From Oscillospiraceae bacterium (lineage in GTDB: Bacteria; Bacillota; Clostridia; Oscillospirales; Oscillospiraceae), in the NCBI GenBank assembly GCA_022792945.1, contig JAAWBZ010000073.1:1-64000 (forward strand): DNA of 64,000 nucleotides, read 5' to 3'. Positions 13,751 through 35,222 of the stretch are shown here, in pieces. Position 1 is the stretch's first letter, and each line of letters opens with the position of its first letter. Made by a program: the position numbers and the translations under genes. The notes beneath the pieces are model-generated. The model saw nothing but the letters and a program-made list of their open reading frames with translations, was not told the origin of the DNA and did no database searches.

Positions 13751-14559
13751 ACCGTTTGCCCCCTCAGTGCTTTGTGCGCCTCCGCGACCAGGGACGCCAG
13801 CTCCGGGATCCGGTGTGTGCCAGGCTCCATGGAGAGGTGGCCTAAAAATTCAATGTTCCCCTCCGGTCCCTTGACCGGTGAAAAAGTCAGATTACGGATG
13901 GTAAGGCCCAGCGTATCCGCCAGGGCCGTAAACTGCTCCAGGACTTCCCGGTGGACCGCCGGGTCCCGAACCACGCCCCTCTTCCCCACCTTCTCCCGAC
14001 CGGCCTCAAACTGCGGCTTGATCAGGCACAGCACCTGTCCCGTGGGGCGCAGGAGCTTCTGAAGGACGGGCAGAACCAGCCCCAGGGAGATGAACGACAC
14101 ATCCACCACCGAGAGGTCCAGTGGCTCACCCAGGTCCTCCGGAGTCACATAGCGGATGTTGGTCCGCTCCATGCAGACCACCCTGGGATCCTGCCGGAGC
14201 TTCCAGGCCAGCTGGCCGTAGCCCACGTCGATGGCAAATACCTTGGCCGCCCCCTGCTGGAGCAGGCAGTCGGTAAAGCCGCCGGTGGACGCGCCGGAAT
14301 CGCTGCACACCAGTCCCGCAGGGTCCACGCCGAAGTCCCGCAGCGCTTTTTCCAGTTTCCAGCCGCCGCGGCTGACATAGGGACAGCCGCGGCCCCTGAC
14401 CTCCACCGGAGCCGCTGCGTCGTAGGACATGCCGGGCTTGTCCGCCTTCTGTCCGGCCACGTAGACCTCGCCGCTCATGATGACGGCCTGGGCCTTGGTG
14501 CGGCTCTCGGCCAGGCCGCGTTCCACCAGCAGGAGGTCCAGCCGCATTTTCTGTTTCAT
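13747..14559 (-). CDS. tlyA: TlyA family RNA methyltransferase
   Basis: S4 domain RLDLLLVERGLAESRTKAQAVIMSG; SGASTGGFTDCLLQQGA. Confidence 0.93.
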   Translation of the reverse strand: MKQKMRLDLLLVERGLAESRTKAQAVIMSGEVYVAGQKADKPGMSYDAAAPVEVRGRGCPYVSRGGWKLEKALRDFGVDPAGLVCSDSGASTGGFTDCLLQQGAAKVFAIDVGYGQLAWKLRQDPRVVCMERTNIRYVTPEDLGEPLDLSVVDVSFISLGLVLPVLQKLLRPTGQVLCLIKPQFEAGREKVGKRGVVRDPAVHREVLEQFTALADTLGLTIRNLTFSPVKGPEGNIEFLGHLSMEPGTHRIPELASLVAEAHKALRGQTV

Positions 14560-16397
14560 AGCCCGAATCCCTCCCGGATGGCCCGCACCAGGCCACCGCA
14601 GTCCAGCCCGCAGGCCTCATACAGCTTTTCGACGCTGCCATGGGTCACAAACTGACTGCCCAAATTCCGCTTGCGCATCACGGCAGGGACGCCGCGTACC
14701 GCCAGCACGGCGAAGATCGCGTCTGCGACGCAGCCGGCGTCCATGACCTCCTCGGCTACGAACAGCCGTCCTGTCTTTTGGACGGAACGCGCCACCGGCT
14801 CCAGGTCCAGGGGCTGGATCTGGTCCAGCTTGAGGACCTCCGCCTCGATTCCCTGCTGCTTGAGCTTCACAGCAGCCTCCAAAACAGGGTTAATCATGGT
14901 CCCGTAGGCCGCCAGCGTCAGATCACGCCCCTCCCGGAGCACCGGCTGGGTGCAGACGGACTTTAAAAAGCCGTCGCCGCCCCGGGGATAGCGGATAGCT
15001 ACTGGCCCGTCCAGCTCCAGCACTGCCCGGCGCAGCATCCCCCGCAGCTCCGCCTGATTGGCAGGGCAGAGCACCCGCATGCCCGGCACCTGCCGGAGGT
15101 AGGCCGCGTCAAAGACGCCGTGGTGTGTCTCGCCGTCCTCGCCCACCAGACCCGCTCGGTCCACCGCAAAGACGACATGCAACTGCAAAAGGCCCACGTC
15201 GTGGAGCAGCATATCGTAGGCACGCTGTAAAAATGTGGAATAGATCGCCGCTACCGGCCGCATCCCCTGCTTGGCAAGCCCCGCGGCCATGCAGACCGCG
15301 TGGCCCTCAGCGATGCCCACGTCAAAAAAACGCTCCGGATAGCGGGCGGCGAAGCCATCCAGCCCGGTGCCGGACTGCATGGCGGCGGTCACGGCGCAGA
15401 CCCTGGGGTCCTCCCCAGCCAGCTCCAGCATGGTCTGGCCGAAGGTCTCGGAAAAGGTGACGCGCTTGGCCGGCGGCGCCGCGCCGGAGTTCAGGTCAAA
15501 GGCCCCCACGCCGTGGAAGCGGGCGGGGCTTTCCTCGGCAGGGCCGTAGCCGCTGCCCTTCTTGGTGATGACGTGGAGCAGCACCGGACAGCGCAGCTCC
15601 TTGGCGCTCTGCAACAGCTCCGTCAGACGGCGGATATCCATGCCGTCCACGGGGCCGATATAGGAAAAGCCCATCTCCTCAAACAGGGTGATCCCCACCA
15701 GATGGCGCTTCAAAAACGCCTTCATTCTGTGGGTCAGGCCGTAGAGGTACTTGCCGCCGGGCACGGCCCGGGTGAAGCGGCGGTAGGCCAGCTTGATGCC
15801 GAAATAGCCGGGCTTGGTGCGGATGAGCTTCAGATGCTTGGAAATACCGCCCACATTGGGCGTGATGGACATGCCGTTGTCGTTGAGAATGACGATCAGC
15901 GGCTCACCGCTGGCCCCGGCGTCGTTGAGGCCCTCGTAGGCCAGCCCGCCGGTCATGGCCCCGTCGCCCAGCAGCGCCGCCACCTGATACGTCTCCCCCT
16001 GTGCCGTTCTGGCCCGGGCCATGCCCAGGGCCACCGACACGGCGTTGGAGGCGTGCCCGGCGATAAAAGCGTCGTGGACACTCTCCGAGGGCTTGGGGAA
16101 GCCGGCGATGCCGCCGTAGGTCCGCAGGGTGGCGAATCGGTCCCGCCGTCCGGTGAGCAGCTTGTGGACGTAGGCCTGGTGGCCCACGTCGAACACCAGC
16201 CGGTCCACGCTGGTGTCAAAGGCCAGCTGAAGCGCCACCGTCAGCTCCACCACGCCCAGGTTGGACGCCAGATGCCCCCCGGTCTGAGAGATATTCTCCA
16301 CCAAAAACCGGCGAATCTCCCGGCAGAGGGCCTCCAGCTGCGCCGGACGCATCTGCCGCAGCTCATCCCGGGTGGGGATGGGGTCAAGCACATTCAA
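14556..16397 (-). CDS. dxs: 1-deoxy-D-xylulose-5-phosphate synthase
   Basis: GGHLASNLGVVELTVALQLAFD, VFDVGHQAYVHKLLTGR, GDGAMTGG. Confidence 0.97.
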   Translation of the reverse strand: MNVLDPIPTRDELRQMRPAQLEALCREIRRFLVENISQTGGHLASNLGVVELTVALQLAFDTSVDRLVFDVGHQAYVHKLLTGRRDRFATLRTYGGIAGFPKPSESVHDAFIAGHASNAVSVALGMARARTAQGETYQVAALLGDGAMTGGLAYEGLNDAGASGEPLIVILNDNGMSITPNVGGISKHLKLIRTKPGYFGIKLAYRRFTRAVPGGKYLYGLTHRMKAFLKRHLVGITLFEEMGFSYIGPVDGMDIRRLTELLQSAKELRCPVLLHVITKKGSGYGPAEESPARFHGVGAFDLNSGAAPPAKRVTFSETFGQTMLELAGEDPRVCAVTAAMQSGTGLDGFAARYPERFFDVGIAEGHAVCMAAGLAKQGMRPVAAIYSTFLQRAYDMLLHDVGLLQLHVVFAVDRAGLVGEDGETHHGVFDAAYLRQVPGMRVLCPANQAELRGMLRRAVLELDGPVAIRYPRGGDGFLKSVCTQPVLREGRDLTLAAYGTMINPVLEAAVKLKQQGIEAEVLKLDQIQPLDLEPVARSVQKTGRLFVAEEVMDAGCVADAIFAVLAVRGVPAVMRKRNLGSQFVTHGSVEKLYEACGLDCGGLVRAIREGFGL

Positions 16398-16410: not shown

Positions 16411-17028
16411 TCACCGATCCTTGCTGCGGAACAGGTTGCGCAGCCATTTGAAGAAATATTTCACGCGGTAGATCAGCTTGGCCGCGAAATGAACGATGGG
16501 CGTGCTGGCGTTGATAGCGAAGGTCTTGCCCACGGCTTTGCCGCCCACGGTCAGCGCCGAAACCACCGCTGAGAGAAGCAACCGAAAAAAAGAGGCAGCC
16601 GTGGGCGTAAAGCTGGCGATCACCTGCGCCGCGATCATGGCCGCCGCCGAACCGGAGATGATGCCGCAGATATCGCCCACCACGTCGTTGCAGATGGACG
16701 AGACGCGGTTGGCGTTGCGGATGAGCCGGATGGCCTCGCGGGCCTCTGGGACGTTGCGCGCGGCCATGGAGTGAAAGGGTTTTTCGTCGGCGGTGGTCAC
16801 CGCCACGCCGATAATATCAAAAAGGATGCCCACCAGAACGATCAAAAACAGGACCGCAAACGCAGCCGCCAGCTGCACGCGATCCAGCAAAGAGTCCGAG
16901 AGGAAGGAAAAACAGGCGGAGATCACCACTGTCGTAGCGAAAATGGTGCTGACCCATCGGATGTCCACCCTGCTTCCGGACTCCCGCTTTGATTTTTTTG
17001 TGCTTGCTTCTTTCTCTGATCCTTTCAA
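16411..17028 (-). CDS. oapA: Putative OLE RNA-associated membrane protein OapA
   Basis: 205 aa polytopic membrane protein with DxxxD motif (ICNDVVGDICG), directly downstream of the ~600-nt non-coding RNA region and upstream of dxs. TTG start after AGGAGG. Confidence 0.8.
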   Translation of the reverse strand: MKGSEKEASTKKSKRESGSRVDIRWVSTIFATTVVISACFSFLSDSLLDRVQLAAAFAVLFLIVLVGILFDIIGVAVTTADEKPFHSMAARNVPEAREAIRLIRNANRVSSICNDVVGDICGIISGSAAAMIAAQVIASFTPTAASFFRLLLSAVVSALTVGGKAVGKTFAINASTPIVHFAAKLIYRVKYFFKWLRNLFRSKDR

Positions 17029-17049
17029 AGGAAGCCTCCTGTAACAGTC

Positions 17050-17657
17050 AAAAAAGGCGGCGGCAGATCAAGTAAATCTTACGGCTTAGGTCGGGTTGGA
17101 TTTCCCCAGAGGCAGCCGCTCGTTGCCGATACGGCGGTTTCCCTTTAATGCCAAGGCGGGTCCGTCGCCGGAGCCCGTACCCGATTGCCACTGAGTCCGC
17201 ACTGCAATCCCTGATCCGCCCATGAATTTCATGACAGCCTAGGTGTTTTCCACAACAGGCACGCCGGTCCTTATCCTCTTTTGCAAATATGGTTTCGAGG
17301 GGCAATGTCATCCTGGCGCCATGGCCATGGGCCGGATGCTTAACTCCCCTGTCCCTCCATATCCACGCAAGGCAGGCTACGCTGCACACAGCGCCGAAGC
17401 ACCGCAATGCAGGTTCAACCCTGATTCGTAGGCGGTCCGGGCCCGAGGGCGCGCGGCCGTCCACAAGATCAGGTCTCCACGGTAACAGGGTCGGAAGTCC
17501 CATGCCATTGGGACGCGCCCTGAAACCTTAACCCCCAGCACCCACCCTAAGCTGGGCGCAAAAAGCAAGCACCAGGGACTTCATCGATATGCCCTTTAAA
17601 GGATTTTTAGGCCCTTCTTCGGGAACCGGCAGCACTGACTAGGATACTGCGCCGCCC
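17050..17657 (-). ncRNA. OLE (Ornate Large Extremophilic) RNA
   Basis: ~600-nt region between ispA and oapA-dxs without credible CDS and rich in hairpins. 5' GGCGGCGCAG (17656-17647) pairs with 3' CTGCCGCCGCC (17066-17056), followed by T6. Size and locus match OLE RNA. Confidence 0.85.
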
Positions 17658-17719
17658 ATACAGTTTATCACATTATTCAAGAATATACAAGAATAATATT
17701 CACGTTTTTCTACAAATTC

Positions 17720-18598
17720 TTATGACTCCCGTCCGGCCAGGTAGTTGGCCAGCTCTGTGAGGAACGCCCGGTCGGCAAAGGGCGAGAGCGCGGCAATGGC
17801 CGCGTCGGTCTGCTCACGGACGATCTCGTGGCAGCGCGCGAGGCCGTAGAGGCGGACAAAGGTGTTTTTCTTCTCGTCCATGCCCACGCGCTTTCCCAGC
17901 TTCTCAAAGTCCCCCTCCACATCCAGAATGTCGTCCTGGGTCTGGAAAGCCAGGCCGATGGCCCGCGCATAGTCCGCCGCGGCGCGCAGCTGCTCCTGTG
18001 AGCCGCCCGCCGCCAGGACGCCCATCTGACAGGCGGCCTTCAAAAGCGCGCCGGTTTTCAGCTCCTGAAGCCGGTGGATGTAGGCCGCGTCCGGTTCCAG
18101 CCGCTCTCCTTCCAGGTCCAGCACCTGTCCGCCTACCATGCCCAGCTCCCCGGCGCACGCCGAGAGCATCCGGAGAACCGCCACCGTCATCTCCGCCGGC
18201 GCGCCGGCCCCCGCCGCCGTCTCAAAGGCAGCCGTCAGCAGCGCGTCGCCGGCCAGGACGGCCATGGCCTCGCCGTAAACCTTGTGGCAGGTCAGCTTGC
18301 CCCGGCGGTAGTCGTCGTTGTCCATGCACGGCAGATCGTCGTGGATGAGGCTGTAGGTGTGGATCATCTCCAGCGCGCACCCAAAGGGCACGGCCTGCCG
18401 CCAGTCTCCGCCGCATACGCGGCAGAACTCCACGGTCAGCACCGGCCGGATGCGCTTGCCTCCGGCCAGGAGGCTGTAGCGCATGGCTTCAAAGAGCCGC
18501 TTCTGGGGCAGATCGTCCGTAAACTGCTCCGCCAAAAAAGCCTCCGCCGCGTCCGCGTAGGTCCGCAGCCGCTGTTTCCAATCATCCATGGGGCTCAA
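17720..18598 (-). CDS. ispA: Polyprenyl (geranyl/farnesyl diphosphate) synthetase
   Basis: GGKRIRPVL, LIHDDLPCMDNDDYRRG, FQTQDDILD. Confidence 0.96.
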   Translation of the reverse strand: MSPMDDWKQRLRTYADAAEAFLAEQFTDDLPQKRLFEAMRYSLLAGGKRIRPVLTVEFCRVCGGDWRQAVPFGCALEMIHTYSLIHDDLPCMDNDDYRRGKLTCHKVYGEAMAVLAGDALLTAAFETAAGAGAPAEMTVAVLRMLSACAGELGMVGGQVLDLEGERLEPDAAYIHRLQELKTGALLKAACQMGVLAAGGSQEQLRAAADYARAIGLAFQTQDDILDVEGDFEKLGKRVGMDEKKNTFVRLYGLARCHEIVREQTDAAIAALSPFADRAFLTELANYLAGRES

Positions 18599-35039: not shown

Positions 35040-35222
35040 TCAATAGAACTTTCTCTTGTTCTTGCGGGCGGCTTCAGACTTCTGCTTACGCTTCAGGCTG
35101 GGGCTCACATAGTGAGCTCTCTTCTTGACCTCCGCGATGACGCCGGCCTTCGCGCAGCTTCTCTTGAAGCGCTTGAGCGCACTCTCCAGAGATTCATTCT
35201 CTTTGACGTGAATTTCAGACAT
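35040..35222 (-). CDS. rpsU: 30S ribosomal protein bS21
   Basis: [60 protein letters not shown]. Confidence 0.97.

Follow-up and report, generated by a model that had tools for sequence, protein, structure and literature searches.

To our knowledge, OLE RNAs, ~600-nt RNAs of Gram-positive bacteria, are among the largest conserved bacterial RNAs lacking a known biochemical function. They are located at the membrane with OapA, and Halalkalibacterium halodurans needs OLE in the cold, in the presence of ethanol or high Mg2+, and on carbon sources other than glucose; loss of OLE in this bacterium also alters protein secretion and the status of Mn2+ (PMC10898510, PMC12054373). By cryo-EM, the OLE RNA is a dimer with P3 stems that possibly cross the bilayer (PMC12265935, PMC12286853), and the A-rich P4 loop is a dimer contact (PMC12265935). 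The bS21 protein is a reported component of the OLE RNP (PMC12054373). OLE has been counted in 2,822 Bacillota hits/species genomes, with uncultured gut clades named, and the same work reported a phylum-wide anticorrelation between OLE and MpfA as well as the weak homology of OapA to CNNM (PMC11332333).

The window analyzed here is a 64,000-nucleotide stretch of an Oscillospiraceae bacterium genome. The first-pass annotation had called a probable OLE RNA in a gap of ~690 nt between ispA and an oapA-dxs pair, and had proposed a search of the minus strand with the Rfam model. The gap is present, from the ispA stop at 17720 to the oapA start at 17028, and the locus comprises the following features:
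17720..18598, minus strand: ispA (polyprenyl synthetase), the upstream neighbor (PF00348, E = 2.9e-55)
17041..17671, minus strand: OLE covariance-model match (RF01071, 474.3 bits, model positions 1-616)
17040-17035, minus strand: AGGAGG, the ribosome-binding site of oapA
16411..17028, minus strand: oapA, 205 aa, TTG start (CNNM, 24.5 bits)
14556..16397, minus strand: dxs, the downstream neighbor (DXP_synthase_N, E = 8.1e-107)

The search was decisive in favor of OLE. The minus strand of 17041-17671 matched RF01071 with E = 3.4e-137 over its full length (616 of 616 positions), and the score exceeded the curated cut-off (50 bits) more than ninefold. We consider it virtually certain that this region is an ole gene. 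The predicted RNA proper is best read as extending from ~17656 to ~17050, narrower than the covariance match, and the originally assigned coordinates, 17050-17657, lie closer to the RNA itself than the slightly wider model match does. No second OLE copy was found in the genome, the assembly of which is 84.5% complete. The only other Rfam match above the cut-off in the window was a T-box leader (RF00230, 108 bits) at 10722-10490, minus strand, which probably controls the tyrosyl-tRNA synthetase-like gene at 10164-8923. The initial emphasis on a gut-type genome needs a correction, as OLE from uncultured gut Bacillota is already in print (PMC11332333).

The gene order was borne out by locus comparison, in which the same neighborhood is conserved in relatives and the order xseA-xseB-ispA-ole-oapA-dxs was seen repeatedly across families. 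In all 80 named loci (contigs encoding an OapA relative), oapA is immediately preceded by OLE in the same orientation. Additionally, OLE was found in 22 of 60 genomes chosen by kinship, and OapA was found in exactly those 22. In one genome of the same genus (G003, contig C25, locus L122, 3268-5486), OLE is preceded by unrelated ORFs, one of them regulator-like, and not by ispA, so this genome has a rearrangement on the upstream flank of the cassette. Another genome (G041) has two OapA relatives (C94:6632-7171 and C41:15701-16261) and a single OLE match.

The oapA call also holds. Nearly all relatives examined have a homologue immediately after OLE. The product matched CNNM weakly in Pfam, below the cut-off, as expected from the weak homology already described (PMC11332333), and NCBIfam has no model matching it. 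The DxxxD motif of OapA is functionally required, and its two aspartates, D115 and D119, were invariant in 35 sequences. The structure predicted from 35 sequences was helical, with a mean pLDDT of 79; its top structural matches were archaeal and bacterial CNNM transporters, the best being the archaeal CNNM MtCorB (7m1t), with a modest fold match (E = 1e-3, TM 0.38). As modeled, OapA is a CNNM-like integral membrane protein.

For the RNA structure, we used an alignment of 44 OLE sequences, with the caveats that these are related to one another and that the structure was taken from the curated model. Compensatory (two-sided) changes were found at 122 of the 164 helix pairs, whereas the shuffle control averaged 85 pairs, with 0 of 500 shuffles reaching 122, and the partner-slid controls gave 58 to 77. 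With P1 added to the model structure, 88% of its cells held standard pairs, and in the window copy 144 of 157 model pairs were standard. The compensatory pairs support a consensus secondary structure shared by relatives. The single-sequence fold of the minus strand was stabler than its shuffles (z = -2.8), a weak test beside covariation. The invariant bases of the alignment are kept in the window copy, and it has both contact sites named in the cryo-EM work, the GGCC loop of P9 and the A-rich loop of P4. The elements located within and just upstream of the RNA are:
17662..17690, minus strand: predicted ole promoter (TTGTAT at 17690-17685, a 17-nt spacer, extended -10 TGA-TAAACT)
17651..17657, minus strand: terminal helix P1, 5' arm (two-sided changes in 6 of 7 pairs)
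17603..17610, minus strand: CUAAAAAU, the A-rich loop of P4 (UAAAAA invariant in the 44-sequence alignment)
17055..17061, minus strand: 3' arm of P1, pairing with 17657-17651 and followed by T6

The ends of the RNA had been proposed to pair as GGCGGCGCAG with CTGCCGCCGCC, with one bulged base, followed by T6. The outer seven base pairs of this stem stood, with compensatory changes in all but one, whereas the inner CAG/CTG extension did not. In the latter, CAG is nearly invariant and its proposed partner varies independently, with no two-sided changes; the CTG bases belong elsewhere, covarying in the helix of columns 578-588 with 762-773, where 98.5% of cells are paired. T6 is present at 17055-17050, and oapA starts 21 bases past it. 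With ~600 nt separating the two arms of P1, this run is not a usual intrinsic terminator, and the terminator scan gave no intrinsic-terminator-like site at T6 or between OLE and oapA.

At the 5' end, 65 of 67 relatives (the OLE loci with enough upstream flank for comparison) have the pattern TTGnAT-N17-TAnnnT ahead of OLE, with a TG separated from the -10 by a single base. Of 9323 control windows taken from these loci, 3 contained it; the rates are descriptive because the pattern was derived from the same sequences. The spacer was allowed to range from 13 to 21 and came out at exactly 17. In the window, the -10 hexamer is TAAACT (17667-17662), and the 11-mer CTTGTATATTC occurs once in the 3.27-Mb genome, at this locus. 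Distant families show, by eye, sigma-A-like -10 elements at the matching place. A generic sigma-70 scan found no promoter upstream of OLE, and six-letter consensus scoring there was no better than shuffles. From the sequence comparison, a conserved sigma-A-like extended -10 promoter is predicted to drive ole from just upstream, and its position would set the start at ~17656, in the first bases of P1. Such a promoter would give OLE a defined 5' end; we found no earlier description of it in the literature searched, which was mostly without the early OLE papers.

The absence of a detected terminator before oapA bears on the first alternative, in which the region would be no more than a long, structured 5' UTR regulating oapA and dxs in cis. 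It agrees with that arrangement that OLE almost touches the oapA ribosome-binding site, on the same strand and in the same operon. However, the full-length match is to a family shown in other work to be an RNP RNA (PMC12265935), and the whole molecule is conserved, including RNA-RNA and RNA-protein contact sites, which is more than an attenuator needs. In some relatives (L003, L013, and L022), oapA is followed by a gene other than dxs. We judge a purely cis-acting leader improbable.

An ole gene that is degenerate and non-functional in the window lineage is less probable still. Loss has occurred nearby, as OLE is absent from 3 of the 6 other same-genus genomes, but the window copy has the second-best score among the 22 genomes (474.3 vs 475.1 bits), keeps its standard pairs and invariant bases, and stands between an intact promoter and an intact oapA.

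The region had also been described as free of a plausible CDS; it contains one ATG-started ORF of 151 aa (17503-17048, minus strand), and the probability that this ORF is protein-coding and the RNA structure fortuitous is negligible, as the frame contains 2 and 4 stops, respectively, plus frameshifts in the two closest sequences compared, shows no third-position substitution bias in those sequences, has no Pfam match, and lies in a region of dense compensatory covariation. The ole region is non-coding.

The genes of the other RNP partners were found by homology in the window genome or in sister genomes. An L7Ae-family ORF adjoining rpsL, with 3v7e (E = 2e-13) and YbxF 4lck (E = 2.1e-13) as its best solved matches, is likely OapC (YbxF), judging from these matches. 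By gene order, another L7Ae protein, encoded in the nusA-infB region, is assigned as YlxQ-like. The bS21 gene lies in the window, not adjacent to ole:
35040..35222, minus strand: rpsU (bS21, 60 aa; PF01165, E = 5.8e-21)

The infA and L24 genes and the map-infA region, the site of OapB, are missing from the 84.5% complete window genome. In G003, of the same genus, map and infA flank a gene whose product matches the solved OapB (7k9b, E = 1.3e-7). The match was weaker in G006, which lacks OLE, consistent with the published occurrence of OapB without OLE (PMC11332333).

We compared the distribution of OLE with that of MpfA-type transporters, defined as strong CNNM matches of 98 bits or more. These occurred in 2 of the 22 OLE-positive genomes vs 32 of the 38 OLE-negative genomes (Fisher p = 9.3e-9, a value that overstates independence because relatedness is uncorrected). 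The pattern among the 60 genomes is a fine-scale repeat of the phylum-wide anticorrelation (PMC11332333). Only G001 and G005, of the same genus as the window, have both systems (contigs C166/C21 and C29/C72, respectively), and a binning error is possible there. OLE and MpfA are thus nearly, but not strictly, exclusive. The absence of MpfA from the window genome is provisional due to the 84.5% completeness of its assembly.

Among the six other genomes of the genus, three (G001, G003, and G005) carry OLE and OapA, and three (G002, G004, and G006) carry neither. In the latter, ispA and dxs are spaced by ~155 bases with no gene between them (contigs C21, C2, and C9; loci L120, L119, and L118, respectively), and MpfA-type transporters are present. 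Just upstream of dxs, all three keep CTTGTATATACATTCATTGTATGGTACACT, a match to the ole promoter in alignment. In many other genera this promoter element goes with ole, so the situation is most simply explained by deletion of ole-oapA, and the aligned intervals point to a clean deletion in this lineage, loss being preferred over gain because the ole promoter was retained. A tree of the dxs N-terminus is not at odds with loss, but the genus is unrooted, and the tree alone settles neither loss nor gain. The three genomes are near-identical in dxs and therefore count as one event. In these genomes, ispA is followed by a hairpin plus a T run (GCCGCACGACGCCGTGCGGCATTTTTTTT). No prior report of a same-genus deletion with a kept promoter was found in the literature searched, mostly without the early OLE papers.

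We somewhat favor the reading that OLE-OapA is being swapped for MpfA within this genus, with G002, G004, and G006 having deleted the cassette so that the ole promoter now drives dxs, and G001 and G005 holding both systems. If true, close species would represent all three states, and functional replacement would be directly testable. At one locus, the genus thus offers genomes with OLE only, with MpfA only and with both, a sharper comparison than the phylum-wide one.

Overall, an ole gene whose RNA forms an RNP with OapA and serves in metal homeostasis and stress is, with good confidence, the best explanation of the locus. Expression in the window genome would most likely begin at ~17656, where RNA polymerase would start at the gene's own extended -10 promoter and yield a structured RNA of ~605 nt. 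Transcription would read through from ole into oapA and dxs, so that the OLE 3' end would have to arise by processing or partial termination; 3' processing of OLE RNA has been published for H. halodurans. The RNA would adopt the architecture known for OLE and assemble with OapA into a membrane RNP, an assembly that we regard as very highly probable by analogy with described OLE RNAs. Binding of OapB, OapC, and bS21 would take place at the known sites, as in the H. halodurans work. As for function, the RNP would most likely tune divalent-metal (Mg2+/Mn2+) homeostasis and stress adaptation, the RNA plus OapA doing what MpfA-type CNNM-CBS proteins do elsewhere. We infer this MpfA-like metal role from the literature and the near-exclusive OLE/MpfA distribution, and hold the metal-homeostasis role to be reasonably likely.

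The MpfA and CorB-type CNNM-CBS Mg2+ transporters share a CNNM-like membrane fold with OapA, but their CBS and CorC_HlyC domains are absent from it; OLE RNA has been proposed in the literature as the stand-in for these missing domains. OLE variants 1 and 2, common in the TANB77 and RF39 clades (PMC11332333), likewise come from uncultured gut Bacillota; their P7, P8, and P9 are shortened or missing, whereas the window copy fits the model throughout. With the full-length OLE RNAs (RF01071; Halalkalibacterium halodurans, Clostridium acetobutylicum), the window copy shares the model length, all helices, the A-rich P4 loop, the GGCC P9 loop and P1, together with oapA directly downstream and the isoprenoid/recN/xseA/nusB neighborhood. 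One of its hairpin loops is ten bases longer than in the model through an insertion, the other differences being ordinary helix lengths and nothing qualitative. Structurally there is nothing novel in the window copy, which is an ordinary full-length member of the published OLE family.
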